A stretch of DNA of 45,085 nt. It comes from a virus. The stretch covers positions 1 through 45,085 of the IMG/VR virus record IMGVR_UViG_3300023174_000278. One strand, written 5' to 3'. Positions 4,172-31,825 of the stretch are shown here, one piece after another; position 1 is the stretch's first letter, and every line of letters starts with the position of its first letter. The translations under genes were made by a program, and so were the position numbers. Below the pieces are notes generated by a model. It was given only the letters and a program-made list of their open reading frames with translations. It was not told the DNA's origin and ran no database searches.

Positions 4172-7100
4172 TTACACGAAGCTTGCGCCGTTATCTGTCA
4201 CAATGAAGTCGATTGAGATGAACTCTACGGCGCGTGTGGGTATGATGATGACCCGTCCGTTCAGACGATTTGCGATCACATCAGTCTGTGTGTTGTTGGT
4301 GTCATCAACTATGACACGGAAGCCTTCAATACCCTGCTGAGCTTGAACAAGTGCCAATGCAGGGTTGACCTGTGACACAAAAGCTGTCCTTGTAGCTGCA
4401 TTGTTCTGCTCAAACAAGAATGTGCTAGCAATATTGCTGACAACACGCTTCACTTCATTCACGAGGCGGCGCACATTGACACGATCAAGCGCAGATTTTC
4501 CAACTTGCAGTGTCTTCTGTCCAAAGATGACGTAACCTGTTCCTGGGAATGACGTGATTGGGTTTATCCTATTGTCATACAGGAAGTCACGATCTGCTGA
4601 GTTTAACCGCACAGATGTCGATGTGACGAAGTTGAGAGCGCCTCGGTTGAAGCCTGCAGGTGCGTACCAAGGATGCGATACGGCATCATTGTATCCTATA
4701 GCTGCCAGAGCTGCGACTGATGCTGGCACCTTGACCTTCCGCGATGTGCCGCCCTGATCTTGCATAGAGATATCTGGGAAGTAGACGGCAACAAAGTTAT
4801 TGTTCAACTTTCTTGATGTAAACTTGTTGCCTGTCTGCTGGACATCTGGATGTTCAGAGCCACCATCGAACAATCTAGACCCGTTGTAATCGTATCCTGG
4901 GATGTCCATTAGATAGAGAGCAAATCCATAGTTCTGCACAAGAGTCGAGACGTAGTTGGTAACTGCTGCATCTCTTATACCAGGAGCAGCAACGACGCTG
5001 ACGTTTGATGCGTATCGATTTGTCAAGATCTCAGCGGCCGTTCTGTAAGCTGTCACAATGCTGTTGTTGACACCTGCGCCGGGCGTGTATGCTGAATTAA
5101 GGCCGATGTCGACCACGGCGACTGCCTTACCACCCGTCTCTGACGACGTTGCTCGGTCATTCATCTTTCCCATGTCAGGATCGAGAATGTTGAGGCCGTC
5201 AAATCCGCCTGTGAAGATGTTGGTAAACTTTGCGTAGTTTGTAAACTTGTTGAAGTAGATCGACGAAGTTACTGAGTAGAGCGATGCAAATGTCAACCTG
5301 TTACCCTCAGCTGCAGGTTGAACTGTGTAGTTTGTTGGATTAACTACGCCGTTACGTATGTAAGCTGTCTCAAGCATGTGCTGCTCTGCAGTTCCTGTAA
5401 TATCTGCAAGTGCATTAACAAGTGTGCGTCCACTTAGTGAGTTGTTAAGAGCAACACGCGCTAGTGTGAACTTATTGTTTGAGAATGCATCTGCCGATGA
5501 GCCTGTTACCAAAACATCAAGCTTCTGGATGCCTAGAAGCTTGCTGTAGGCAGTGAGCAAAGGATTAAACAGTGAGCTGTCATTAGAACGCAAGATTGCA
5601 TTAGAAACGCTAGATGTCAGGGGAAGTGCCTCTGACTTAATGCCCCAGTAGTAAGATGCATCTGTGATCTCAAGAGATCCAGGCTTACCAACGTAACCAC
5701 CTGCAGCATCAACTGCATTAGTTGTCACCTTAAAGCGGAGGGGAACGGGTGGAAGAATTGAGCCCGTGTGTGCCTCGAGGCCTGCTGTCCCGAAGACGCC
5801 GGCAAGTCGTCGAGCTGTGTTTATTCCAAAACCACTTAATCCAGTCGTTCCATCAGTGAGCGTGTCTGTTGTCTTGACAACTGGCAAGCCTCTAAAGCCG
5901 AATGGCAGTGCATCAGATGGTACACGCTTTGCTTCAACGTCTGGGTGCATGACAACTCTTACACGACTTGACACATTGGTTCTTGTTCCTGATGTGTAAG
6001 ACTTGCGCTCTTCTGATGAGAGCGCGTCAAAACTAAAGAATGACTTTTGATCACCAATGCGCTTCGCAACATAATCATCATCATCGGGATTTAGTGTGCA
6101 GTTAGGATACTGCTCAAGAATGACAGGATTTTTATCAGTGTCGTAGAAATCACGAACTTGAACTGTAAACGTTCCGTATGGATTTGCAGGATCACTTGAC
6201 TTAGCGAGCGTGCTGATTGATACCTTGTACTTCTGTGATGTGTTTGCACCATCATTCAGCGTTTCAAAGTAGAAGAGATCATATTCACTCGAACCGTATG
6301 GTTGAGAGATGAAATAAGTTGTCTTTGCTGATGTGTATCTAGTGTCAAATCGACCAAAGGCATCTCTAAAAGATTGTGTGGTGTCACCTGATGCAGCCGA
6401 TGTATTTGCAGATCCTGATAGGACAGCAACTGAGCCGCTGTCAGTTGATGTGATTGCAACCTCAGCTTCGACTGGAAAGTCTGCGTAAAGCAGATGTTCT
6501 TCTAGTTCAAAACGTGCAGGATCTGTGTTAAGAATGTTACTAATATATGCAGAATCTGCAGGATCAAGTGAAGCAGTCAAAATTCTAATGCATGATTGAC
6601 CATCACCTGTTGAGAACGAAGGTGATGAACTAGAGATAACAAGCTTAAACTTTCTGTAAAGATTACTGCTTAGTGTGGCGTTAATTGTTGCATTATCGTC
6701 AGCTGTGTTTGCAACTGAATAGTTCTGATTGTGGTCAAGAACCTGAAGACGTGTGCCTGATGCGAGTAGCACCATTCCACGAACTAAGTTGACAAAGTTG
6801 TCTCCTGTTGCAACGCTGAAACTGTTGTTGTCTGTAAAGATTGGGTATCCTACATCAGCAGATGCTGATACCCAGTGTTTTGCTGTGATATACTGAACCG
6901 CACCTTTGTGACGTGCATCTGTGCCAACTGCTGGGGTTGTTCCTTTGATGAAGAATCCAGCATTCTTGACTGTACCCTGTGCTGTAGTTGTTGAAAAATC
7001 TGACGTCGTCGAATTTGCTCCGCAACCAAGCACTCTGACAAATGTGAGTGCTGTTCCGTTCTGGAGATATTGACTTGCGCCCTGGAGGCCCACGTCAGAT

Positions 7101-7288
7101 GTGCGTGGGGCACCAAAAATCTGCTGAAGCTGTGCAGCATTGCCCACCGTCACTGGGACGAATGCGGGGCCGATTTCTGATGTTCCAATCACACCGACTG
7201 GAACACCTGATACACCGGGTGTTGCGGGAGATGATAAATCAATCTCTTGCTCAAAGAACCCAGGTGACCTAAAAGTTGTCTCTGCCAT
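4172..7288 (-). CDS. Tail sheath protein, first copy (T4 gp18-like)
   Basis: This 1038-residue sheath subunit opens with FRSPGFFEQEIDLS and GVIGTSEIGPAFVPVTV, the usual N-terminal sheath motif. It carries HPWYAPAGFNRGAL in the conserved core and FGQKTLQVGKSALDRVNVRRL in the C-terminal domain, ending in the beta strands that interlock with neighbouring subunits in other phages. Two adjacent ATG codons exist (7291 and 7288); the second is preferred because GGAG would lie only 2 nt before the first and 5 nt before the second. The gene follows the gp15-like gene and precedes the second sheath gene. It is about 1.6 times the length of T4 gp18; the extra length lies in the middle, likely decorating the outer tail surface. 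Both copies look intact, so neither is an obvious pseudogene. Confidence 0.93.
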   Translation of the reverse strand: MAETTFRSPGFFEQEIDLSSPATPGVSGVPVGVIGTSEIGPAFVPVTVGNAAQLQQIFGAPRTSDVGLQGASQYLQNGTALTFVRVLGCGANSTTSDFSTTTAQGTVKNAGFFIKGTTPAVGTDARHKGAVQYITAKHWVSASADVGYPIFTDNNSFSVATGDNFVNLVRGMVLLASGTRLQVLDHNQNYSVANTADDNATINATLSSNLYRKFKLVISSSSPSFSTGDGQSCIRILTASLDPADSAYISNILNTDPARFELEEHLLYADFPVEAEVAITSTDSGSVAVLSGSANTSAASGDTTQSFRDAFGRFDTRYTSAKTTYFISQPYGSSEYDLFYFETLNDGANTSQKYKVSISTLAKSSDPANPYGTFTVQVRDFYDTDKNPVILEQYPNCTLNPDDDDYVAKRIGDQKSFFSFDALSSEERKSYTSGTRTNVSSRVRVVMHPDVEAKRVPSDALPFGFRGLPVVKTTDTLTDGTTGLSGFGINTARRLAGVFGTAGLEAHTGSILPPVPLRFKVTTNAVDAAGGYVGKPGSLEITDASYYWGIKSEALPLTSSVSNAILRSNDSSLFNPLLTAYSKLLGIQKLDVLVTGSSADAFSNNKFTLARVALNNSLSGRTLVNALADITGTAEQHMLETAYIRNGVVNPTNYTVQPAAEGNRLTFASLYSVTSSIYFNKFTNYAKFTNIFTGGFDGLNILDPDMGKMNDRATSSETGGKAVAVVDIGLNSAYTPGAGVNNSIVTAYRTAAEILTNRYASNVSVVAAPGIRDAAVTNYVSTLVQNYGFALYLMDIPGYDYNGSRLFDGGSEHPDVQQTGNKFTSRKLNNNFVAVYFPDISMQDQGGTSRKVKVPASVAALAAIGYNDAVSHPWYAPAGFNRGALNFVTSTSVRLNSADRDFLYDNRINPITSFPGTGYVIFGQKTLQVGKSALDRVNVRRLVNEVKRVVSNIASTFLFEQNNAATRTAFVSQVNPALALVQAQQGIEGFRVIVDDTNNTQTDVIANRLNGRVIIIPTRAVEFISIDFIVTDNGASFV

Positions 7289-7314
7289 CATTACTCCGAC
7301 TTCAAAGCCGAATA

Positions 7315-11178: not shown

Positions 11179-12162
11179 TCACGTGAACCTGATTACTTCA
11201 AGATGAGCATCATTCTGGAGACACCATGACATCGTGGCGCGCCACTTCTCTCGGTCGACCTCTGTCTCGCATCCCTTCACCTCGTACAGCGTCTTCTCGT
11301 CAAGTGTCAAGAAGTCTGGGATGTAGGTGCGCTCGAGCCCGTTCGGGTCCGTGTATGTGATTCGGATGCCGTGCTGCTTGGTGACTGGGACGTTCTGCTC
11401 GACGCACTGGTCGAGGAAACGGGACTCCCAGGAGGAGTGCATGTATTCCTCATTGCCTGTGAAGGGGTTCAGCTTCCACTCGGCCCTATAGGGTGCCTGG
11501 GGTCCGATCTTGCCCTGTTCGAGGCGATCACAAGCTCGGGATGACCATAGTTTCCTCATTTCTGGATTCTCTTCCCACCATTGTTTTGACCACGTTGATT
11601 TTTTTGCTATCACTTCGGGGCGTTGGGCTACTTCTTTGCTTATTTTTCTCATGTTTTCTCGATATTCATCAGATGCCATGATCTCATGTCGAGGATCATT
11701 TGGATCTGACCATCTAGTTTTTGATGCTTTTGAATACCGTTCTTTCATCTCATTTGTCCGCTTCTTTCCCTTGTTCGGACTATTTTCACCTTTCTTCCCG
11801 AACATTGGATTATTCTCACCGCGACTTGCATGACCGTCGACGAAGATCGCAAAGCCGCCCTTCTTCCAAGTAAGCTCATTGTCACATCCGCATGCACACT
11901 TAGGCCACACACCGTCGTGCACATGCTTCACTTCATACAGCGGCCAGTCAATTCCGTGCACCTTTCTTACATGTCGTGCAAGGACATTGTTTGAGTTTGC
12001 GACCATCTCACCGCACTCTAGACACTTCATGGTGAAAGTTACGGTCTTGTCGTAAAGTGACTTAGCAACTTCCTTGTGGTGATAGCCAACGTGTGCGCCA
12101 ATTGAACGTGGCGTGTTATTAATCATTGCATCACAGTAATCGCACTTAATCTTGTCGACCAT
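11179..12162 (-). CDS. Freestanding homing-endonuclease-like protein (zinc fingers, NUMOD3, PD-(D/E)XK)
   Basis: A 327-residue mosaic. Residues 7-29 (C7, C10, H24, H28 or H29) and 47-69 (C47, C50, H64, H69) form two C2H2-type fingers; 89-112 has a CxCxC motif with a later GH. Residues 115-135 contain GENNPMFGKKGENSPNKGKK, the NUMOD3 DNA-binding repeat of mobile endonucleases. The C-terminal domain has E246 in SSWESRFL, D283 in YIPDF and E294/K296 in YEVKG, the PD-(D/E)XK nuclease pattern. Such proteins cut an allele lacking the gene and promote its copying by recombination. It sits alone between the capsid terminator and the neck cluster, with AGAGGA before ATG. It shares its architecture with the gene at 30923-31825. 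The exact target site is unknown; neighbouring capsid or neck genes are natural candidates. Confidence 0.85.
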   Translation of the reverse strand: MVDKIKCDYCDAMINNTPRSIGAHVGYHHKEVAKSLYDKTVTFTMKCLECGEMVANSNNVLARHVRKVHGIDWPLYEVKHVHDGVWPKCACGCDNELTWKKGGFAIFVDGHASRGENNPMFGKKGENSPNKGKKRTNEMKERYSKASKTRWSDPNDPRHEIMASDEYRENMRKISKEVAQRPEVIAKKSTWSKQWWEENPEMRKLWSSRACDRLEQGKIGPQAPYRAEWKLNPFTGNEEYMHSSWESRFLDQCVEQNVPVTKQHGIRITYTDPNGLERTYIPDFLTLDEKTLYEVKGCETEVDREKWRATMSWCLQNDAHLEVIRFT

Positions 12163-17798: not shown

Positions 17799-18410
17799 CT
17801 ACTTCCATGCTAAGATGTCTGTGAAGATCCTATTGACTCTGTCGGATTTCGTAAAAGTTTTCTTTAATTCTCTGCCCGATATCACCTTGCTCTCATTCAT
17901 CATGAATGCGCCTGGCGTTGAAGGTTCTGAGACGATGTCGAAGCAGATCAGCTGGAAGTCATCTTGAACTACAACAGCTCCGCTTTGATTGCGTGTTGAT
18001 CCGACACCTCTAGATGAAATGCCCAGTGTGATCCCGGCTTCAACAAGGCTCTGGAGAATCTTACCGCTAGGAGTATCAAGTAGCTCAACGACGCCTGTTA
18101 CGGTGTCGCCTTCCATCTTGGCTTCGCGTACAATGTGTGACACATTCTTTAATTCTACGACAGATGTATCAGGATGATCGCACTCGCCCAGTGCTCTATT
18201 CTCACGGATAAACTTCTGGTAGTTATCGATCTCGCGCTCTAGGATGGCACGTGGATAAATACGACCGTTTTGGTTCAGTGTATCAGCACGCTGGATGACA
18301 CCGCGGAGCATTACTTTACCGCCGTTGAGCTGCTTTGACTCACGGACAATGTCAGGTGAGTATTTGAGTGGCAGCCACTCTTTCAAAAGAACCATGTTAT
18401 CACTTGACAT
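17799..18410 (-). CDS. Prohead maturation protease (T4 gp21-like serine protease)
   Basis: A 203-residue protease of the gp21/U9-type fold. Key features are the GRIYPRAILEREI block at 49-61, the catalytic His in GECDHPDT (H79), the acidic strand HIVREAKMEGDTVTG at 92-106, and the nucleophile region GISSRG (S132-S133), which together give the pattern of phage capsid proteases. It acts inside the prohead, cutting scaffold and the N-terminus of capsid protein after L/I-x-E and then degrading itself. Length matches T4 gp21 (212 residues). It overlaps the preceding helical protein gene by 11 nt and precedes the small head genes and scaffold, the usual order. Several neighbouring proteins carry sites that suit its specificity. 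Which of the two serines is the nucleophile is not certain. Confidence 0.9.
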   Translation of the reverse strand: MSSDNMVLLKEWLPLKYSPDIVRESKQLNGGKVMLRGVIQRADTLNQNGRIYPRAILEREIDNYQKFIRENRALGECDHPDTSVVELKNVSHIVREAKMEGDTVTGVVELLDTPSGKILQSLVEAGITLGISSRGVGSTRNQSGAVVVQDDFQLICFDIVSEPSTPGAFMMNESKVISGRELKKTFTKSDRVNRIFTDILAWK

Positions 18411-19263
18411 CGTCTTCCTCCTCGCTTAATTCTGTCACTAATTGAGACACTGTCATGAAGCGTGAGATTGTCTCATCATTGAGTGATGTGAAATTCAAAT
18501 TTCGTAAAGCTGTCTCTACAAGTGGTATCCGTTCTTGTAGCGTCTGATTTTTAGTCATCGTCTTTAGCTGGCCCACTCTAGAAAGAGCTGTCTCCCTAAG
18601 AGAGTTAAGACGTCCTAGGAAGCGCTCTTCTTGTCCGTTCTCAATGCTAAAGATGTAATCTTGGATCAGCTTTGTCTGGTCTACATTAAGCTTACCTGCG
18701 TATTTTTCATTGAACTTCTCGTTCATGATTTTAACCACAAGATTATCAACTTCAGGTGCAGGTGTGTCAAGATTGACTTGATCTTCTTTTTTCTCTGCAA
18801 GCAGCCAGTGAACAACTTGCCCTTCAAGCATAACCATCTTAGTCAGATCAGAACGATCGCCTGCAGTCCACTCGTTTAGAAGATTTTGGACTGTTGCATA
18901 GAAGCGGTAATCTGGTATTCTTCTCTGATAAAAGCTGTCATCTTTTAGGTTGTGGTTTATCTCTCTGATCAAGAGAGACTTCTCGTGGTCAAGCTTGCGC
19001 ATATCAGCTCTGCGTGCAGCAGACTTTGCCTCTGCAAGAACAGCAGCAGCAACAGGTGTGTCGCTTACAGTAGACTTGACAAGTGCATTGAAAAGTCTGT
19101 ATTCCTTATAGAGCTCTGTTGACTTATCATAGTATTTTTCAATGATGTCAAGAGCACGTTGAGCGCTAGCTTTGTCGTTTTCGACTATTGCTGCTGACAC
19201 TGAGCGCAGTAGTAGCTCATAGATGATACCGACGTTTCGCTTCTTGTTGTGCTGGATGTTCAT
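18400..19263 (-). CDS. Helical protein between portal and protease (287 aa), possible prohead core protein
   Basis: This 287-residue protein is almost entirely alpha-helical and charged. It starts KKRNVGIIYELLLRSVSAAI, continues with long helices such as ARRADMRKLDHEKSLLIREI and ends in a Glu/Asp tail (TELSEEEDDVK). No enzyme motif is visible. In T4 the genes between portal (20) and protease (21) encode the prohead core proteins gp67 and gp68, so the position suggests a core or assembly-initiation role, although the protein is much longer than either. Its start overlaps the portal stop by 4 nt and its end overlaps the protease start by 11 nt, giving tight translational coupling across the three genes. 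Homology to a known family is not claimed. Confidence 0.65.
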   Translation of the reverse strand: MNIQHNKKRNVGIIYELLLRSVSAAIVENDKASAQRALDIIEKYYDKSTELYKEYRLFNALVKSTVSDTPVAAAVLAEAKSAARRADMRKLDHEKSLLIREINHNLKDDSFYQRRIPDYRFYATVQNLLNEWTAGDRSDLTKMVMLEGQVVHWLLAEKKEDQVNLDTPAPEVDNLVVKIMNEKFNEKYAGKLNVDQTKLIQDYIFSIENGQEERFLGRLNSLRETALSRVGQLKTMTKNQTLQERIPLVETALRNLNFTSLNDETISRFMTVSQLVTELSEEEDDVK

Positions 19264-21305
19264 TCGTCCTCCTCTGACGTATTGTGAGACGCAGAGATCT
19301 GCCTATTAAATATATTCTTACGTCGCATTGAACCTAAAACACTATGTATCTCTGACATTCTTGTATCGTTGAAAGTGTAATCTTCGTCTGGATCGACGTC
19401 ATCATCAATCTCTTTAAGAACATCCTTAAATGGATTGATTAAGTCATTCTTTGCACCAAATGGGTGGGCAATTGAGTCTGTTTGATCGCGCTTATCGTGA
19501 CTGACCATTGCGTTATGATCAGTCATGTTATGCAAGTGACCTCGACGTTTTCTCTTGTCGTTATAACGATCTCTATCGGCTTTTGTCTTTCCCTCGATCC
19601 TCTCGCCGAGCAGCTTGCGGCCTATTGCATCAACTGTGCTTTGTGCTTTAATCGGCGCACTCTCATCGTTAATTGACAAGTTAGATAAGTCAAAATCTGG
19701 CTCTGCTAAGATTCCTAGGCCGCGCTTGTTTGTGTTGGTCGAAGCAGTCTCAGGTCCTGCGGGTGCGGGCGCTGCGGGTGGCGTTTCTCCACCGGCGGGT
19801 GGTGTAGGCTCGGCTGAGGGTGCCTCGGGCTCTGAAGCGAATGGGCTAGTTGGAATTCCTGCTGCCATTGATGACATATCAGGAGCTGTAGATTTATCTT
19901 CTGGCAGCTTAACTGCTTCAACTTTAAGTTCCAGCTCCTTGTCTTTGATGATTCCTTTCTCTATGGCTTCAATCTCTTCATCAGTCATCTGGAAGATCTT
20001 CTTACGAACCCAGCGCTTGTCAACAAGGTTAGGGATACCGTTAGCAGATCCTGCAATCTGGAACTTAGTATTGTAGAGTTCGAGCTTCTGCTGCTGTGCA
20101 ATCGTTGAAGGATTTGTCAGCTTAAGGTCGAAGTCAAGGAGGTCGGGGCCGTCAAATCCGTTGGAGTGCAAGTGGATGATGGCAATCTTATTGAGCTCGG
20201 ACACGATTGTGCGCTGGATGCGTGCAATTGTGCGAGAAAAGCGGATGTCTTCTTGAGACAGCGTTGCCTTTGCGCCCAATCCCTCATCGTAACCAAGATA
20301 TGCCTTTGGGATCTTCAGTGCAGCAAACATCTTCTTCTGGATGTACTGGACGTCCTCAATTGCTGCAGCATTTGCACCACCTGCGAGAGGCTCAATCTTT
20401 GTGCCTGATTGACCGCCGCGGACAGGAATGAAGTAGTCTTCGTCCACAGACAGAGGATTATACCTGAGGTCTACGCGACCTGTCTGCTTATCGACAACTT
20501 GACTCTTCTTGAGCTGTGCTTGTGCTTGCTCCATGTAGTTGGCGATGTCTTCAGGCGGTACATTTCCCACATCAATGTAGAATACGCGACGATCCGGTGC
20601 GCGGACGACACGGTAGACAAGCATTGCATCCTCGACGAGGATCAGCTGACGCCAGATGCGTCGTGCTGCTTCAAGGACTGATGAACCGTATGGTAAGAAT
20701 GCGTCATTACCTAGGATTCTGAAGTGTGACACCTGCCAGTTTTCAAGAACTTGATTACCCTGTGTCAGCCAGCGGAAGCGAACTGCCATCGGGTCGTCCT
20801 TGTCGTACCCCTCTTCGCGCTCGATCTCATTAACTGGAATTGGATAGACGTTGATGACACCCTGGTCGGGTGAAACGTCGTTGAAGAGGAAGAAGTCACC
20901 GTACTTACACATGTTTCGTGCCCAAGCTGTCAAGTTGAAGTTGACGTTGAGCGTGTCGTAGAAGAGCTCGTTAAGAAGCTTGTGGATGACTGGATTCTCT
21001 GAGTGGATGTGAAGGACGTTGCCCTTCTCATCGGGTGAGATCGTCTCTTCAGAGTAGATGTCAAGTGCTGATGCGATCTCTGGTGTGTACTCCATCTCTT
21101 GGAAGTCAGAGTATCTTGCCATACGGTCGTAAGAACCGTATGCACTCATTGCTGAGCTGTAGACATAGCTCTGTGCTTTTCTAAACTGCTCAAATGCTGA
21201 AGTTGACTTTGTTGAAGGAGTGACTTCTCTCACTCTTCTCTTGATGACTGGACCACTCCTAAAGAGCTTCGTCAGTCTGCCAAAGAGATTACTATCTTGT
21301 GCCAT
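19260..21305 (-). CDS. Portal vertex protein (T4 gp20-like)
   Basis: A 681-residue portal subunit. The core has LVEDAMLVYRVVRAPDRRVF followed by YIDVGNVPPEDIANYM, the signature of gp20 portals, plus the YGDFFLFNDVSP segment, the AFLPYGSSVLEAARRIWRQL helix region and IPKAYLGYDEGLGAKATLS. Twelve copies form the ring at the head vertex through which DNA is pumped and to which the neck binds. The C-terminal third (after about residue 460) has a Pro/Ala/Glu-rich linker and a charged tail, longer than in T4 gp20 (524 residues). The start at 21305 is preferred over one 27 nt upstream because GGAG lies 5 nt before it and the overlap with the terminase gene disappears. Confidence 0.94.
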   Translation of the reverse strand: MAQDSNLFGRLTKLFRSGPVIKRRVREVTPSTKSTSAFEQFRKAQSYVYSSAMSAYGSYDRMARYSDFQEMEYTPEIASALDIYSEETISPDEKGNVLHIHSENPVIHKLLNELFYDTLNVNFNLTAWARNMCKYGDFFLFNDVSPDQGVINVYPIPVNEIEREEGYDKDDPMAVRFRWLTQGNQVLENWQVSHFRILGNDAFLPYGSSVLEAARRIWRQLILVEDAMLVYRVVRAPDRRVFYIDVGNVPPEDIANYMEQAQAQLKKSQVVDKQTGRVDLRYNPLSVDEDYFIPVRGGQSGTKIEPLAGGANAAAIEDVQYIQKKMFAALKIPKAYLGYDEGLGAKATLSQEDIRFSRTIARIQRTIVSELNKIAIIHLHSNGFDGPDLLDFDLKLTNPSTIAQQQKLELYNTKFQIAGSANGIPNLVDKRWVRKKIFQMTDEEIEAIEKGIIKDKELELKVEAVKLPEDKSTAPDMSSMAAGIPTSPFASEPEAPSAEPTPPAGGETPPAAPAPAGPETASTNTNKRGLGILAEPDFDLSNLSINDESAPIKAQSTVDAIGRKLLGERIEGKTKADRDRYNDKRKRRGHLHNMTDHNAMVSHDKRDQTDSIAHPFGAKNDLINPFKDVLKEIDDDVDPDEDYTFNDTRMSEIHSVLGSMRRKNIFNRQISASHNTSEEDE

Positions 21306-21313
21306 TGATTCTC

Positions 21314-22909
21314 CTAGTTCTTGTACACCCACGCAAACTCTGGGGGTATTCCCAAAGGTCGTGCGTGTCCACGCAATGCACGATCACGATTTATCTCTTG
21401 ATGATGCTTGTTTGATATTACGTCGTTTGACGCACCATTAAATTGCTTGTTCTTAAAACCCATCGCAGCAAGCATCGCATTGTTTAGTTTATCTGAATCT
21501 TTACCATAATCATTTGACGCGTCATAGAGCCACGTTCCAATTGCCAATGAAAGAATAAGATCGTCGTTCTCTCCCTTCATTGCTTGTGCTTTGTTTTCAT
21601 TCCAGACAAACGTCTTTAATTCTTCATAGAAGCGAGAAGAGTATATCAGTAGTTGTTTGTTTCTAATGATCTCCTCAAGCTTGGTGAGGATCTGGTTTCT
21701 TGACTTACCGCTTGTTGTAAAGCCTGCAAGTTCTGTCTCAGCAGGAGGAACATAGTCGCCGATGTAGACAGACTTGTTCTTATTGTAGTACATCTTTGGG
21801 TAGCCAAGATCCTTAAGCTTGACTATGGTTGCGTATCCAAATGAGTTATTCTCTGGGCACATTAGAGCTTTATTGTAAAGCAAGCCGTACTCATTTAAGA
21901 GTTCACCAAACTTATCAGGTGCAATCTTTCCTTTATACTCAGCGACTACTTCGCCCTCTGTGCAGTCAATGACGTGAAATGTTGAATAGTCTTTGCCGTC
22001 GCCTCTTGCAACGTCAGCAGAAATGATGTATTTGTGCTCTGTAAGAGCCTGCTTCCATATCCATACATTTCTATCAGGACCGCCGCGATCGATCGGTGGT
22101 CGTATAATCTTGCTAATCCACTTGATGTCGTCGTCATTAAGGAACGTCTCACCTGATGCAGCAAAGTCACACAGGTACTCCTGCGCAATCTCTTTGGCTG
22201 ACAGATTTCTCGTTTCCTTCTCGAACCACTCTTGATTGCGTTCTGGATGAACGTCCCAGTTCAAACGGATGGATTTGAATTCATTTAGACCTGACTCGGC
22301 CTCAGTGAAAAGTTTGTAATACTGACCTCCAACACCATTAGGGGTTGAAAGAACAATAGCACGACCACCTGTTGAGATTGTGGGGTACAAGCCTGTCCAC
22401 AGCTCATCAAAGTTTCTAACGAATGCTGCCTCATCGATGATGAGCAGTGAGAGAGACTCAGAACGACCTGCATCTTCTGAAGTAGGTACTGCCTTAATTG
22501 ACGACCCGTGACTGAACTCTATCATCTGTCGATTGTTTAGAGTAATCTGGGGTAGCACCATCCACGGAGGAAGGTTGCTAACCATAGTCTTTACTTTCTT
22601 GATGAAGTTCTGCGCGACACCCAGCTTAGTTGCAATGATAAGAATATTCTTATCTTTCTGGAACAGCGCGAGCCAAACAGAATAAGCTGCTACAAGTGTT
22701 GACAGACCAAGCTGGCGACTTTTGACTATAACAGTGAATCTATTCTCGATGAAGTCGTCAACGCACTGGTCCTGGAAAGGGAACGTCTTAAATGGGATCG
22801 TTCCCTTTGTTGGATGCTGTATTTTTACATAGTTATTGAAAAAATAGGCCGGATCTTTACCGCAGCGTATAATCTCAGATACTTGTCTTGACTTGTTGCT
22901 TGTGTTCAT
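21314..22909 (-). CDS. Terminase large subunit (T4 gp17-like DNA packaging ATPase-nuclease)
   Basis: The product has 531 residues. In the N-terminal ATPase the Walker A variant SRQLGLST is at 64-71, Walker B LLIIDEAAF has D159/E160, and the coupling motif STPNG is at 188-192. The C-terminal RNase H-like nuclease shows IISADVARG, a conserved Asn/Glu patch in CPENNSFG and NDDLILSLAIG, supplying metal-binding acids. The enzyme binds the portal, pumps concatemeric DNA into the head and cuts it when full. The length is slightly below T4 gp17 (610 residues). The start overlaps the stop of the 127-residue gene by 4 nt, indicating coupled translation, and portal follows 8 nt after. No typical small terminase (gp16) is obvious in the window. 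Confidence 0.96.
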   Translation of the reverse strand: MNTSNKSRQVSEIIRCGKDPAYFFNNYVKIQHPTKGTIPFKTFPFQDQCVDDFIENRFTVIVKSRQLGLSTLVAAYSVWLALFQKDKNILIIATKLGVAQNFIKKVKTMVSNLPPWMVLPQITLNNRQMIEFSHGSSIKAVPTSEDAGRSESLSLLIIDEAAFVRNFDELWTGLYPTISTGGRAIVLSTPNGVGGQYYKLFTEAESGLNEFKSIRLNWDVHPERNQEWFEKETRNLSAKEIAQEYLCDFAASGETFLNDDDIKWISKIIRPPIDRGGPDRNVWIWKQALTEHKYIISADVARGDGKDYSTFHVIDCTEGEVVAEYKGKIAPDKFGELLNEYGLLYNKALMCPENNSFGYATIVKLKDLGYPKMYYNKNKSVYIGDYVPPAETELAGFTTSGKSRNQILTKLEEIIRNKQLLIYSSRFYEELKTFVWNENKAQAMKGENDDLILSLAIGTWLYDASNDYGKDSDKLNNAMLAAMGFKNKQFNGASNDVISNKHHQEINRDRALRGHARPLGIPPEFAWVYKN

Positions 22910-23293: not shown

Positions 23294-23527
23294 CTAACCT
23301 CTTAGTATATCTATTTCGTTAAGTATGTGTGATCTTCTATTAGTAATTTCAGCAGCAACTTCAGCCATGCTAGGGCGCCAACCCATTTGCCACTGCGCGC
23401 GATTTGTCTCAGCCCACTTCATACCACATTGCGTGCAGCTCTGAAATAGGCGATGATAGTCAAGGTCATCTTGCCCCACCATTGCCGTCTCGCAAACAAG
23501 ACAAAATAGCGGCGTAATATCAAGCAT
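23294..23527 (-). CDS. Zinc-ribbon protein, unknown function (77 aa)
   Basis: A short protein with two CxxC pairs (C9/C12 in CLVC and C31/C34 in CTQC), the layout of a zinc ribbon, then WAETNRAQWQMGWRPSMAEV and a terminal helix. The start chosen at 23527 overlaps the stop of the Mre11-Rad50 fusion by 8 nt (ATGCTTGA), suggesting coupled translation; upstream in-frame starts at 23548 and 23584 lie deeper inside that gene. No good ribosome binding site decides between them. The ribbon could bind DNA, RNA or protein; a modulator of the adjacent recombination nuclease or of late transcription are both conceivable, neither shown. Confidence 0.55.
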   Translation of the reverse strand: MLDITPLFCLVCETAMVGQDDLDYHRLFQSCTQCGMKWAETNRAQWQMGWRPSMAEVAAEITNRRSHILNEIDILRG

Positions 23528-26500
23528 ATCTGACACTTGCACCCCCATCAATCCAGTTAATTTCAACAAAGTTATCAACTGCATCTTTGATAGCGTCTAC
23601 GTGAGAGATGATTAAGATCTGACTAAAGTGCTTCTTCAGAGATCTCAGTAGACGAGAGCATGCTTCAAGGTTAGCGTCATCAAGGGCACCGAACCCTTCA
23701 TCAATGATGAAGACATTAGACTTTGGCAAAGACGACATGTTGATGAGTGCAACTCTTGTTGCAATTGCAGAAATCATCTTTTCCATTCCCGATCCTAATT
23801 CAATTATCCGACGCTTGTCACCGTAGTTAATGTAAACTTCAAGTGAGTTTGACTCATCATCAACCTCAAGCTCGACTGTGAAATTACAGACACCGAGTAG
23901 AATATTCTGAATCTCAGCATTGACAAGAGGAAGCAGCTTAGAGATTAGGCGTGATGGAAGACCTTTCTTCGACATTGCAACATTGAACAGCTCAAAGATC
24001 TCGAGGTCAGCAAGATCTCGATCAAGTACCTCTTTCTCATTCTGCAGCGTTGTGATAGAAGTCTCGTGAGCACCGACGTTCTTTGCATTTGTGAGCTGCA
24101 ATTTACGTGTCTTCTCAAGCTCTTCTTCTACTTCTTTGATGCTGTCATAGACACCACACAGGTTATCTGAGTCTTTGACAACTGCGCTAAGTCGGTCGAT
24201 CTCAAGATTACATGTAGCAAGATCAACATCGACAGACTTGAGTGATGTCTCTGCATGCTCAATCTTCATGTCAAGCTTACTAACATCGAACTGTAGTGTT
24301 CGTTCTTCCTGGAGCATTAAGTCATATTTCTTGACTTTGTCATCAAGATTCTGCTCAGCTATTTCATTAATATTAGTTTGAAGTTGCTTGATGTACTTCC
24401 GCTGCTCTTCAACTTCTAGCTGCTCCTGGCCAATCTTTGATTTACTCTCAAATGCCTTCTTAATGAATGGGCATGTTGGAAATTCGTCACCGCATGGAAC
24501 TGTTGATAGAATTCCAACATCTTCATTCAGCCTTCCTAGAGATTTAAGATGCTGCTGCAGCTCCCTATTCGCAGCTTCAAGCTTTGTCTCTAGCGACCTT
24601 TGTGATTGAACTTTCTGTCGAAGTTCATCAATAGGAAATTTCTCCTTTAGTGCACTGAATTTCTCAAGTCGTGCTGTGTTCTTAGAACGCAGCGTGCTAG
24701 CATCTTCAACTTGAGATGCAAGATCCTTGCGCTTTTCGGCAAGACGATCCCGGCGCTGCTCAAGTTCACGCAGCTTAACTGCAGCTTCGACTGATGTGTC
24801 ACCGTTGATGATGACACGTAGATCTGCCAGCTTTCTTGTAAGATCACTGTGAGCATTGTCAAGTTCAGAAGTTTTCTCTCGTTCTGCAGCGAGCAGCTTT
24901 ACAGCATCTGTAATTTTTGCATCAATCTGCTGCTTGTCTCGGCGTCCTCTAAACGAGGCACGAAGGGGTACAAGATCCTCTCGTGACCGCTCATAAAGTG
25001 CGTCAAAGATGTCAAGATTAAGAAACTTTCCAATGATCTGCTTGCGAGCGGTCGACTTCTCCTCAAAGAACTTATTGAGGTTGCCTTGAGCTGCAAGAGA
25101 TGTCATGAAGAAGTCGTCTGCAGTTCCAATTAGCTGTCGCAGCACCTTCTCTGTCTCACGACGCTGCTCATCTGAGACGTCACTTAGCTGCATATCCGTG
25201 TCGAGCTTAGTGATGCCTAACGTCGTGTTGACGTTGACGTCGCCTTTCTTGTTAACAGACTTTTTAGTTCTACGAGAAATCTTATACTTGTCACCCTTAA
25301 CTGTAATGTCTGCTTCGGCGTCGCATGTGTCCTCCTTATCATTAATGATGTGGAGGTTCTTAAGTGATCCTCTATCTGAGGTGTTAAAGAGACAGTAGAC
25401 AAGGCTGCCAATGATGGATGACTTTCCAGCACGGTTCTTGCCAAAGATGCCTGTAATGCCAGATGACTTGGTAAAGTCAATCTCGTTGTCACCGCGGAAT
25501 GCGAATGTGTTCTTAAAAGACAGCTTATCAAGTGACCAGCTGTAATTTCGATCCTCATCGCTGCCCAAATCAAGTGACTTCATGTACCTATCAACGATTG
25601 CATCAACACGCTCAAACTTATCTTTCGGCAATGCTGAGTCAGCATAGAAGTCACGGATCAACTCTTTGATTGTGCTAGGCTGCCTGAGATCTGTTACAGG
25701 TGTTCCGCTTGTCTTTGCAAGGCTTTTGCCAGCATCTAGATCAGCGATCTTGTAGACGATCTCTTTCGGAGACTTCTCAGCTTGCAGCTTCGATTCAATG
25801 AGGTGCAGAGTTGTAGGTGGTACTGGAACATCGGAGCCAATGCGGACACGTGCACCAGTAGGAGCGCTGTCGATCATCTGGTAAGTTTCATCAAGATCAC
25901 CGCGGTAACCGATTGTTACAAATGGTGAGTCATTGACGATGTGAATAAACTTACAGCTGTAATCAACTGCTGACTTAATATCCCACAGCAGGCAGCCCTT
26001 GATGACTTCCTCACCGTAATCCTGCTGGATGAACGACCCAGGATAGGAGATGACGCCGTTACCCGTGACATTTTGACGCTTGTGGATGTCGCCCAAGAAA
26101 GTGTAGTCAAACTCATCAAAGAAGCTTGCTGTCACTTCACCGTTGATCTTCCAGTCGGAGTCTGTAGACGACCCACGTACTGCGCCGTGGAAGCATGCAA
26201 TGTTGATCTCACCCTTGACGGGCTTGACGTCATCCCAACCTTCTTCATCAAAGCATGAAAAGACACACCAGTTGATGCCAGGAAGACCTGCTGGATAGAC
26301 ACCTGACTTCTTGTACAGGTAGATACGCTTGTTGCCCAGAGCGTTGATGATGGGTGTGATGGCATCCTGGCGACTCTTGTTGTGGATAAGACCGTCATGA
26401 TTGCCCAGGATCATGTGGACAGGTGCGATCTCTGCCATCGTCTCAAAGCACCAGGTCAGAATGTCGATCAGCTCCGGTGTGATGCCTTGTGTCTTTGAGT

Positions 26501-26639
26501 GAACGATATCACCGCCGACGAAGAAGACATCAGGCTTCTCCTTTCGAGCGATGTCGAACAATCTAGTGAAACACTTCCTATACTCGTCATGTCGAGACAG
26601 GCCTCTAAAATGAATGTCTGAGATATGGAACGCTTTCAT
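23520..26639 (-). CDS. Fused Mre11-Rad50 (SbcD-SbcC; T4 gp47-gp46) recombination nuclease
   Basis: One 1039-residue chain carries both halves of the complex. Residues 1 to about 350 are a calcineurin-like phosphoesterase: D8/H10 in SDIH, GGD at 42-44, GNHD at 79-82, CFHG near 149-152 and GDIH at 183-186. From about 366 on is an SMC-type ATPase: Walker A FGKNRAGKSS at 399-408, a long coiled coil with a zinc-hook-like pair C716/C723 near its middle, signature LGSGMEK at 948-954, Walker B VFIIDE (D980, E981) followed by ALDD, and H1013 in the switch. In T4, gp47 and gp46 are separate and resect DNA ends for recombination-dependent replication. No stop or frameshift interrupts the join. The start lacks a strong ribosome binding site. 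It stands between a Cys-rich protein and a zinc ribbon gene. Confidence 0.93.
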   Translation of the reverse strand: MKAFHISDIHFRGLSRHDEYRKCFTRLFDIARKEKPDVFFVGGDIVHSKTQGITPELIDILTWCFETMAEIAPVHMILGNHDGLIHNKSRQDAITPIINALGNKRIYLYKKSGVYPAGLPGINWCVFSCFDEEGWDDVKPVKGEINIACFHGAVRGSSTDSDWKINGEVTASFFDEFDYTFLGDIHKRQNVTGNGVISYPGSFIQQDYGEEVIKGCLLWDIKSAVDYSCKFIHIVNDSPFVTIGYRGDLDETYQMIDSAPTGARVRIGSDVPVPPTTLHLIESKLQAEKSPKEIVYKIADLDAGKSLAKTSGTPVTDLRQPSTIKELIRDFYADSALPKDKFERVDAIVDRYMKSLDLGSDEDRNYSWSLDKLSFKNTFAFRGDNEIDFTKSSGITGIFGKNRAGKSSIIGSLVYCLFNTSDRGSLKNLHIINDKEDTCDAEADITVKGDKYKISRRTKKSVNKKGDVNVNTTLGITKLDTDMQLSDVSDEQRRETEKVLRQLIGTADDFFMTSLAAQGNLNKFFEEKSTARKQIIGKFLNLDIFDALYERSREDLVPLRASFRGRRDKQQIDAKITDAVKLLAAEREKTSELDNAHSDLTRKLADLRVIINGDTSVEAAVKLRELEQRRDRLAEKRKDLASQVEDASTLRSKNTARLEKFSALKEKFPIDELRQKVQSQRSLETKLEAANRELQQHLKSLGRLNEDVGILSTVPCGDEFPTCPFIKKAFESKSKIGQEQLEVEEQRKYIKQLQTNINEIAEQNLDDKVKKYDLMLQEERTLQFDVSKLDMKIEHAETSLKSVDVDLATCNLEIDRLSAVVKDSDNLCGVYDSIKEVEEELEKTRKLQLTNAKNVGAHETSITTLQNEKEVLDRDLADLEIFELFNVAMSKKGLPSRLISKLLPLVNAEIQNILLGVCNFTVELEVDDESNSLEVYINYGDKRRIIELGSGMEKMISAIATRVALINMSSLPKSNVFIIDEGFGALDDANLEACSRLLRSLKKHFSQILIISHVDAIKDAVDNFVEINWIDGGASVRYA

Positions 26640-27052: not shown

Positions 27053-28015
27053 CTACAGAATGGATCCACTTGATATCTTGCTAATTTTGTGCAGCATGCT
27101 AACTTTTGGATACCATGCTTTTGCATCTGCAATACGCTGCTTAGCAACATCGCGAGGCATCTCACCGATGTCTTTAAATCCCGTGATGTCTGCTTGACGA
27201 ACATCGATGCCAAATTTATACAGATCACCTGCAATCTTGTGTATCTTATCCTCAACGTCTGGATCTAGCGCCAATGTTACTGGAATATTATTTGCCACGA
27301 TCTTTGCAAAAAGAGCTGCAGATTGTGGCAGATAAGATCCGAGTATTGGAATGGCATTCTGACCGACATTGATCGCATCAAACACACCCTCGACGATCAC
27401 GACGGGCTTTGACCAATCAACCATTAGATCATTAAAGATGATCTCCGTCTTGTTTGCTTTTGAATTGACATAACGCGGTTTCGTGTCTTTGTCAATCGAG
27501 CGCGAGACGTAGTAGTTGAGATCACCGTCAGAGTCAAATGAGGGAATGATGACACGCCTGTCAAATCTATTCTCACTGCTGACACACATCTTCCAGTACC
27601 ACAGGTCACGCTCTGTTAACCCGCGACGCATCAGATAATTGTACGTCGCTCTAAAATTAGGATTCTTAGAGTTTGACACTTGAGCTACGGGCTTCAAGCC
27701 ATCAGGTAACGTCACAACCTCGACAGCGGGTACCTCAGTCGTATCATCATCACTTATGCCGAATCTCTCTCTAAAAGCAACAACAACTTCGGGTGTATAG
27801 TATTGCTTAAAGAGCGATCGAAGATTTCCTCCTTTTACTCCGCACACCCAACAGTGGTACTTCCACGTCTCGACGTTGATCGAGAGCTTTTTCTTATCAG
27901 GCGTCTTACAGTTTGGACACGCAACTGCACAGTCATTTCCATCTCTTGAAACATGGATGTCACGAAATATGCCGCGCAGAAATCGTATCTTCTCGGTTGA
28001 AGTGACAGTCGTCAT
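27053..28015 (-). CDS. DNA primase (DnaG-type, zinc-binding plus TOPRIM)
   Basis: A 320-residue primase. Zinc ligands C33, C36, C55 and C58 (CPNC ... CWVC) form the DnaG-type template-recognition ribbon. The catalytic TOPRIM domain has E209 in VVIVEGVFDA and the acidic pair in LALDPDVED (D251, D253). The intervening region NYLMRRGLTERDLWYW and RVIIPSFDSDG corresponds to the primase core. The protein makes short RNA primers on single-stranded DNA during lagging-strand synthesis. No helicase domain is fused, so a separate helicase must exist outside the window. It is close in size to T4 gp61 (342 residues). The ribosome binding site is weak, and the gene follows the RuvC-like gene by 20 nt. Confidence 0.9.
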   Translation of the reverse strand: MTTVTSTEKIRFLRGIFRDIHVSRDGNDCAVACPNCKTPDKKKLSINVETWKYHCWVCGVKGGNLRSLFKQYYTPEVVVAFRERFGISDDDTTEVPAVEVVTLPDGLKPVAQVSNSKNPNFRATYNYLMRRGLTERDLWYWKMCVSSENRFDRRVIIPSFDSDGDLNYYVSRSIDKDTKPRYVNSKANKTEIIFNDLMVDWSKPVVIVEGVFDAINVGQNAIPILGSYLPQSAALFAKIVANNIPVTLALDPDVEDKIHKIAGDLYKFGIDVRQADITGFKDIGEMPRDVAKQRIADAKAWYPKVSMLHKISKISSGSIL

Positions 28016-28035: not shown

Positions 28036-28596
28036 CTACTCTTTGTTCAACCATCCTGCGCGAGCTAGAACATATGCATCTGCCATATCATAGCACGATG
28101 TCTGGACTCCGCCTGTCTTTGTGGTAGGCCAATCGATGTCAATTTGAGGCTTAACGAACTCAAAAATCTGCTGTTTAGTGGACACATCTGACTTTCGGTC
28201 AAGCTTAATACCCAGCTTTGACCTTGCTGACGTAGCATTGAGAAAGATGGGTTTTGACCTACAAACTTCGTAAGCGATCAGTGATGCAGCACCATTGAAT
28301 CGGGCGAGTGTATTGATCGTCTTGGCAGACGACAATCCAGGACGGAATGCCTGCAAGTTCTCCTCGATGCAGACCTTCTTGATGCCTGTATGTCTCGCAA
28401 ATACAGCTGCAAGTGCAGCCCTATAAGCATCGCACTTGTCAAAGAAGTCATCAAACTTATCAAGCTTAAAATTTCCTACCTCAACTACTCTGCCCGCATC
28501 TGCCGTCACAATTGCGTAGCCGGTGCAGGACGTTGAGATGTCAAGCCCGAGGATCGTGTCACATGTCGTACTTGATTCTAAAGAGAAATTCTTCAT
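28036..28596 (-). CDS. RuvC-like Holliday junction resolvase
   Basis: The 186-residue protein has the RuvC RNase H-like layout: D19 in ILGLDISTSCTGYAI, E78/E79 in VCIEENLQAF, and D170/D173 in CYDMADAYVLA, giving four acids for two-metal catalysis. It should cut four-way DNA junctions formed in recombination-driven replication and so supply unbranched DNA for packaging, the job done in T4 by the unrelated gp49. Its start at 28596 lies 38 nt inside the LamG-type virion gene, with AGAGG 4 nt upstream; no in-frame ATG lies between it and D19, so the overlap seems real. It opens the DNA-metabolism block, followed by primase. Confidence 0.88.
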   Translation of the reverse strand: MKNFSLESSTTCDTILGLDISTSCTGYAIVTADAGRVVEVGNFKLDKFDDFFDKCDAYRAALAAVFARHTGIKKVCIEENLQAFRPGLSSAKTINTLARFNGAASLIAYEVCRSKPIFLNATSARSKLGIKLDRKSDVSTKQQIFEFVKPQIDIDWPTTKTGGVQTSCYDMADAYVLARAGWLNKE

Positions 28597-30919: not shown

Positions 30920-30926
30920 TAACTAT
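30920..30926 (-). promoter_or_regulatory. ATAGTTA/TTATAAA motif upstream of LamG-type gene
   Basis: The minus strand reads ATAGTTATAAAGG, 18-28 nt before the start at 30898, overlapping the TAG stop of the homing-endonuclease-like gene. It is the closest of the set to the T4 late box TATAAATA. A late promoter that the mobile gene landed next to is possible but unproven. Confidence 0.3.
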
Positions 30927-31825
30927 AAACATGTTTTATTATCCTTAAATTCATAGCCTCGAGCGTGCGTCAATCCTAGATCGGCTTCGGTTACGATCCT
31001 ATAGCTAATTCCCAGGTCATTGCAAAATTTTATTGCTGCACTTGTCTTTACAGACACTTCATCAGATGAAACCAGAGTGCAAGGTTTCACTTCAATAATC
31101 TCTTTTTTACCATCGCGATATTCTACTAAGAAATCTGGAACGTAGTTCTTTCGTCTTTCATCATGTGTGTAGGGTATCTTTAATGGTTCGGATGTAAATG
31201 TTACTACATCGTTGTCATTATCAAGTTGCCTTGCAAAAACACTTTCGTAAGATGACCGCAGAAAAATTCTGCCTGCTTTCTTAGATACGTACCACTCTGT
31301 CTTAAAGCCCGTATGTGTCCAAAGACCGTCGACAATCTTTTGAGAGATGGCATCTGATACTTTTTCAGAATTTCTTTTGACACGATCGTCTGTATAAGCT
31401 GTCAATCCGCTGTTCCAAGCAGGTTTTCCAAACCTGTGATTTGCTGCACCTCTACAATGATAGAATGCATTTCTTTCACCTAAATTTGCGCATGATTTAG
31501 AGCAAAATCGTCGAGCTCTATTGATAAACGTCGTCTCAAAATTGCTTCCGCAGCCTTCGCAAGAAATGATTATAGGCCCATCAGGTCTCTGATAAAGATG
31601 ATCGTAAGCACATTTCTGTGTGCAAAATCTAGCATCTTCTGCTCTAAACTTTATGACATCAAATTCCGTGCCGCAGTGCTCGCACGTCTTCGTGACGCGT
31701 TGGCGTTTTGTTCCGGAGTTGGAGCAAGCTTTTGAGCAATATTTTGAGCTTCTCGATCTATAGGGAACCTGCCAGATCTTTTGGCAGAACTGGCAGGTGA
31801 CTTGAACTGGTGCAAATTTCGTCAT
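30923..31825 (-). CDS. Freestanding homing-endonuclease-like protein with three zinc fingers and PD-(D/E)XK domain
   Basis: A 300-residue protein. Three regular Cys4 fingers follow one another: C11/C14/C30/C34, C48/C51/C68/C72 and C89/C92/C108/C112, each C-x2-C-x15/16-C-x3-C. Residues about 129-146 (NHRFGKPAWNSGLTAY) resemble NUMOD3. The nuclease domain has E194 in SSYESVFARQL, D231 in YVPDF and E245/K247 in IIEVKP, a PD-(D/E)XK site. The architecture is that of the gene at 11179-12162, but the fingers are Cys4 rather than C2H2. It is inserted between two virion genes that share a C-terminal module. TTATATT lies 19 nt upstream as a possible promoter box, and the gene looks more AT-rich than its neighbours, consistent with recent mobility. 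The target is unknown. Confidence 0.85.
   Translation of the reverse strand: MTKFAPVQVTCQFCQKIWQVPYRSRSSKYCSKACSNSGTKRQRVTKTCEHCGTEFDVIKFRAEDARFCTQKCAYDHLYQRPDGPIIISCEGCGSNFETTFINRARRFCSKSCANLGERNAFYHCRGAANHRFGKPAWNSGLTAYTDDRVKRNSEKVSDAISQKIVDGLWTHTGFKTEWYVSKKAGRIFLRSSYESVFARQLDNDNDVVTFTSEPLKIPYTHDERRKNYVPDFLVEYRDGKKEIIEVKPCTLVSSDEVSVKTSAAIKFCNDLGISYRIVTEADLGLTHARGYEFKDNKTCL

Follow-up and report, generated by a model that had tools for sequence, protein, structure and literature searches.

The Mre11-Rad50 complex has been studied as the product of two genes, with a nuclease that is gated by ATP-driven movements. E. coli SbcCD and the T. maritima and archaeal Mre11-Rad50 complexes consist of two polypeptides and have a CxxC zinc hook and a histidine in nuclease motif V, while phage SbcD/SbcC pairs such as T4 gp47/gp46 are the same enzymes with a short coil and a presumed role in recombination-dependent replication, also encoded by two genes. 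Fusions of Mre11 and Rad50 were reported by Yoshida, Claverie and Ogata in 2011 (PMC3175470) in Mimivirus (R555), Bacillus phage 0305phi8-36, Clostridium kluyveri and Deferribacter plasmids and some eukaryotes, and fusion homologues were found there to be abundant in aquatic viral metagenomes. Here we analysed a virus record of 45,085 bases (G000, the whole of which is termed the window) which carries a gene of this kind on its minus strand at 23520..26639. The frame runs from an ATG to a TGA over 1039 amino acids without an internal stop codon, while the plus strand read over the same interval contains 41 stops.

The initial annotation had read this stretch as one polypeptide that joins Mre11/SbcD to Rad50/SbcC and has every main motif, and this was confirmed by the one 1039-residue frame, by Pfam and PHROGs matches and by alignment to relatives; the minus strand, the unusual coil tip, the substitution in motif V and the re-split relatives described below were absent from that annotation. 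Pfam matches were Metallophos (residues 1-187), AAA_23 (372-633) and SMC_N (384-1028), and in PHROGs residues 1-356 matched the SbcD-like phrog_100 (1.9e-28) and residues 369-1037 the SbcC-like phrog_77 (2.6e-53). The solved structures matched by sequence were those of Rad50, SbcC and Mre11. The phosphoesterase domain (residues 1-215, 25995..26639, minus strand), assigned from Pfam, motifs and a fold match to Mre11/SbcD, contains Mre11 motifs I-IV as D8xH10, GD44, GN80H81D and H151, followed by GD184IH186. The Rad50 N-lobe (residues 367-542, 25014..25541, minus strand; Pfam, PHROGs, model and alignment) carries the Walker A sequence GKNRAGKS (K406) and the Q-loop (Q518), and the C-lobe (residues 890-1039, 23520..23972, minus strand; Pfam, model and alignment) carries the signature SGMEK (S950-G-M-E953), Walker B IIDE (D980-E981), the D-loop and the H-loop H1013. 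Between the lobes the AlphaFold model places an antiparallel coiled coil with arm 1 at residues 543-713 (24501..25013, minus strand) and arm 2 at residues 727-889 (23973..24461, minus strand). Every catalytic residue was identical in all 66 aligned fused relatives.

With 65 aligned relatives as AlphaFold input, the whole chain (pLDDT 83, pTM 0.53) and residues 1-368 (pLDDT 88) were modelled separately. The junction, residues 350-366 (nt 25542-25592), lies where the initial annotation had placed it, but the accompanying proposal that the join swaps the Mre11 capping and Rad50-binding C-terminus for a short linker was contradicted by the models, which keep both elements. A capping domain of beta-alpha-beta-alpha-beta topology is predicted at residues ~240-298 (25746..25922, minus strand; fold match of nuclease plus cap to 7dog/4m0v), then a loose stretch (~300-320), then a helix-loop-helix at residues 321-355 (helices 321-331 and 339-355; 25575..25679, minus strand; fold match to 3qg5, 3tho and 6s6v), whose predicted Rad50-binding role is by analogy with T. 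maritima Mre11 (PMC3175470). The linker is confined to about 11 residues, 356-366 (25542..25574, minus strand), and the first Rad50 strand begins at residue 367. Over nearly its entire length the 1-368 model aligned with T. maritima Mre11 (3qg5_D; 393 columns, E 2e-15), E. coli SbcD 6s6v and 3tho, chains which include the cap and the helix-loop-helix; the high rmsd to all three indicates that the position of the helix-loop-helix was not reproduced in this model. Models also matched the Mre11-Rad50 complexes 7zr1, 7yzp, 3qg5 and 6s6v by fold. A loss of cap and helix-loop-helix was therefore rejected on the models and fold matches, and their retention was likewise concluded for most other fusions (PMC3175470), which share with the window protein the order N-terminal Mre11, C-terminal Rad50 and a linker of roughly 9-12 residues. 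Since both elements are predicted to be retained, the chain could fold in the manner of a normal Mre11-Rad50 pair, with ~11 residues connecting the two modules and with the fold of both modules as in E. coli SbcCD and the T. maritima and archaeal complexes. With a pTM of only 0.53, the whole-chain model places the nuclease on the heads only tentatively.

Taken as a whole, the locus is in our judgement very probably best explained as encoding, in one chain, the Mre11-Rad50 nuclease that processes DNA ends in a large contractile-tailed phage, a function which for all parts of the fusion we infer from homology. Contacts between the Mre11 domains, between the ATP-bound heads and at the coil tip would bring two chains together as a dimer, an M2R2-like clamp, and ATP hydrolysis would open the heads so that DNA ends could reach the Mn-dependent nuclease. 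The product would resect ends for recombination-dependent replication, by analogy with T4 gp46/gp47, the single system from which the recombination role is argued. The covalent join would fix 1:1 stoichiometry and co-inheritance and would not confer a new activity. A natural single chain with full catalytic motifs is a stoichiometry-locked enzyme of 1039 residues and would be handy for structural work on clamp opening.

The nuclease departs from Mre11/SbcD at one position. Motif V reads GDIH in place of GHxH (Pf Mre11 His206 and His208), and D184, the equivalent of Pf Mre11 His206, was Asp in 66/66 fused proteins, while the split-gene phage homologues examined retain the histidine (GHYH in L003, GHIH in L006), as do 10/10 bacterial SbcDs in an HMM alignment which covered the motif in only these ten sequences. 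Mimivirus R555 also has Asp in place of Pf Mre11 His206 (PMC3175470), and the missing histidine therefore does not exclude membership of the fusion family. Because Asp stands for His206, the metal site of the fused Mre11 may differ from that of Pf Mre11. The same substitution, in the window family as in R555 and set against the histidine of split-gene phage Mre11s and the ten bacterial SbcDs, could mean that the 3'-5' exonuclease is weakened and that the protein is mainly a structural clamp or endonuclease in which the ATPase-driven clamp is what matters. We regard this as improbable: all other Mre11 metal ligands are invariant in the 66 sequences, Asp is itself able to ligate metal, and such strict conservation suggests a working site.

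Upstream of the fusion lie a DNA primase (27053..28015, minus strand; Pfam, PHROGs) and a RuvC-like Holliday junction resolvase (28036..28596, minus strand; PHROGs), which together with the fused gene would form a replication block, and downstream lies the terminase large subunit (21314..22909, minus strand; Pfam, PHROGs), followed by the portal (19260-21332) and head protease (17799-18410) genes (Pfam, PHROGs). The order RuvC-primase-Mre11/Rad50-g96-g127-TerL-portal-protease was conserved across most of the family. The ORF g96 (23294-23584), for which no family match was found, shares 65 nt, read in another frame, with the 3' end of the fused gene and is conserved beside it in 74 loci. The window also encodes two tail sheath genes and a major head protein beside the protease and portal, and these tail sheath and head genes indicate a contractile-tailed phage. 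SbcCD-type enzymes cut hairpins and protein-blocked ends, which would also suit a protein directed at host DNA or host defence (degradation of the host chromosome, hairpins) rather than at phage recombination. We consider such a role quite unlikely, as the gene sits within a conserved block of primase, RuvC and packaging genes, and SbcCD is practically universal in jumbo phages (PMC7824862), a better fit to a core replication role.

An artefact of sequencing or assembly that merged two neighbouring genes into the single frame, for which Listeria phage LMTA-57 offers a precedent, is already refuted by relatives and can be set aside with near certainty, given the same frame in nine independent contigs, selection across the join, ~185 complete single-chain relatives down to ~37% identity and Mel-JY01 at 28%. 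Nine further contigs have the same 3120-bp frame and the same join (L007-L012, L014 and L016 at 95-97% identity; L017 at 77%). Against the 95-97% relatives dN/dS was 0.008-0.024 for the nuclease, 0.012-0.080 for the cap, 0.021-0.068 for the helix-loop-helix and linker (residues 316-368) and 0.036-0.047 for the ATPase, and thus did not exceed 0.08 in any segment, the junction included. Because nine contigs share the frame and purifying selection extends over residues 316-368, the missed stop or frameshift at the junction that the initial annotation had warned of is excluded. The LMTA-57 case itself (L003, KJ591605 59521-62550), a 1010-residue 'fusion', was rejected as a true fusion, since ~50 near-identical relatives have one base more (3031 vs 3030 bp) and are in most cases annotated as two genes; either an error in sequencing or a single deletion probably accounts for this 'fused' recombination exonuclease.

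An alignment-based scan of viral contigs gave at least 585 related stretches. Among the loci fetched, the nuclease and the next Mre11 segment lay in one ORF at no fewer than 210 loci, with at least 185 complete fused genes, and after removal of sequences at ≥90% identity there were 115 fused and 15 split genes; these counts contain duplicate contigs and should be read as minimum numbers rather than as frequencies. In a separate scan of bacterial chromosomes, none of the best 80 loci listed had both domains in one ORF, a sample that does not show absence from bacteria. In 13 contigs of 123-289 kb, some of them incomplete, no credible SbcC/SbcD match other than the fused gene was found, apart from two weak ones; the window itself is a 45-kb fragment. 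R555 is likewise the sole copy in its virus (PMC3175470), but at 1351 aa it has a coil of cellular length, whereas the window protein of 1039 aa has arms of ~165 residues and a C-x6-C tip. Named phages with a fusion were Microcystis phage Mel-JY01 and the uncultured jumbo phages LR756501 and LR756508, the gene being re-split in the last. The Mel-JY01 protein (WWT39521) is a full-length fusion with 28% identity, encoded downstream of a primase, but it has a CKHC tip of the CxxC type and is annotated as 'AAA domain containing protein' with no mention of the nuclease. The initial annotation had allowed that identical fusions might prove common and already characterised. Common they are, with hundreds of viral loci, and they were described bioinformatically in 2011 (PMC3175470), but no biochemistry was found, nor any measured activity of a phage Mre11/Rad50 fusion in the open-licence literature. 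The fusion is therefore of a published kind, common in aquatic phages and the rule in the phage group of the window, and is not itself a discovery.

What makes this lineage a variant among Mre11/Rad50 fusions is the C-x6-C tip of the coil. At the coil apex, where Rad50/SbcC proteins have a CxxC zinc hook (62/64 bacterial SbcC proteins), the alignment, motif search and model place a loop at residues 714-726 (24462..24500, minus strand), VPCGDEFPTCPFI, with C716-x6-C723 (nt 24471-24494) and the family consensus VPCGDxFPxC (CGDxFPxC). Both cysteine columns were filled in 65/65 aligned family members from viral contigs, the window included, with a longer insert between them in L053. In a motif search of viral contigs the C-x6-C tip occurred only in Rad50-like frames, and those frames not truncated by the contig had the nuclease in the same ORF or, in split forms, in an adjacent ORF, with the exception of the broken frame L231. 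More distant fusions have tips of the CxxC type (CKHC in Mel-JY01, CVTC in LR756501, CEYC in LR756508). The simplest reading of these sequences is that the C-x6-C tip is a derived, lineage-specific joint, which probably still joins two coils through a metal or a disulphide, and it raises the question of an alternative to the zinc hook.

The window copy of the gene is intact; in 27 loci (23 complete; 15 without near-copies) the gene was interrupted inside Mre11, just after GDIHKxQ. Examples are L307:2291-6448, L343:1259-5423, L004:3935-8160, L256:1420-4718, L210 (reverse strand) and L312, among others. The first ORF of the split forms gains a similar tail (e.g. REVEIEIDEDDLCKYPGCTIVE) and then stops, while the second has a fresh start (e.g. 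MGKKIKIKVKKPW) and carries the last Mre11 strands, the cap, the helix-loop-helix and Rad50. Many of the ORF pairs share an ATGA or GTGA overlap, suggestive of coupled translation. An ORF of ~300 codons lies between the halves in L307, L343 and L004; that of L307 has a weak resemblance to Vsr/DUF559 below curated cut-offs, that of L004 scores at the cut-off level for a TnsA-like nuclease, and for that of L343 no Pfam match was found. In L191 ~200 nt (391-594), which may hold a small ORF, separate the halves, and L312 retains a short remnant that resembles the beginning of the L307 insert. These intervening ORFs (L004, L307, L343) and the spacer (L191), together with the similar tails added to the N-terminal halves, make programmed frameshifting unlikely. 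The LR756508 gap is better read as gene fission accompanied by an inserted ORF than as an intron, since other loci that lack an insert have similar N-terminal tails and C-terminal starts.

On a quick tree the split label required 7 changes, at least 6 of them forced by well-supported branches, and the split L307 sat beside the fused L218. We infer that mobile endonuclease genes inserted themselves repeatedly and that some lineages then lost the endonuclease; alternatively, gene exchange may have spread a few split events. Genes in pieces of this type have been reviewed for Aeh1 nrdA/mobE and T4 gene 60/mobA, and the nrdA pieces form an active enzyme (PMC2988022). As in these cases, the two halves of an enzyme gene are parted at a critical site by an endonuclease-like ORF in L307, L343 and LR756508, but here the enzyme is another one and the boundary cuts through the Mre11 fold, in a gene that was already a fusion. 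On balance we lean towards a history by repeated insertion in which the lineage fused Mre11 to Rad50, gained the C-x6-C joint and was then re-cut several times just after GDIH by mobile, putatively homing, endonucleases, so that in the split forms two chains would together make up the Mre11 fold, one of which would supply the remainder of Mre11 along with all of Rad50; the joint would remain a working one. The re-split relatives mark where nature tolerates a cut within the Mre11 fold. Both the C-x6-C tip and the re-split inside Mre11 look new within the open-licence literature, where no paper on zinc-hook variants of this type or on a split Mre11 was found; the term 'zinc hook' does not occur in PMC3175470.

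Several other ORFs of the window were observed. Between 28559 and 42662 there are several large ORFs (779, 606, 1182, 805 and 337 aa) with no PHROG match at E 0.001. The two adjacent large tail sheath genes, at 1170-4139 (989 aa) and 4172-7291 (1039 aa), both match phrog_23; the latter is unrelated to the fusion and its equal length is coincidental. ORFs at 30923-31825 and 11179-12162 gave matches to TnsA-like nuclease and HNH/endonuclease families and probably encode mobile endonucleases, broadly of the type seen in the ORF which interrupts the Mre11/Rad50 gene of LR756508.
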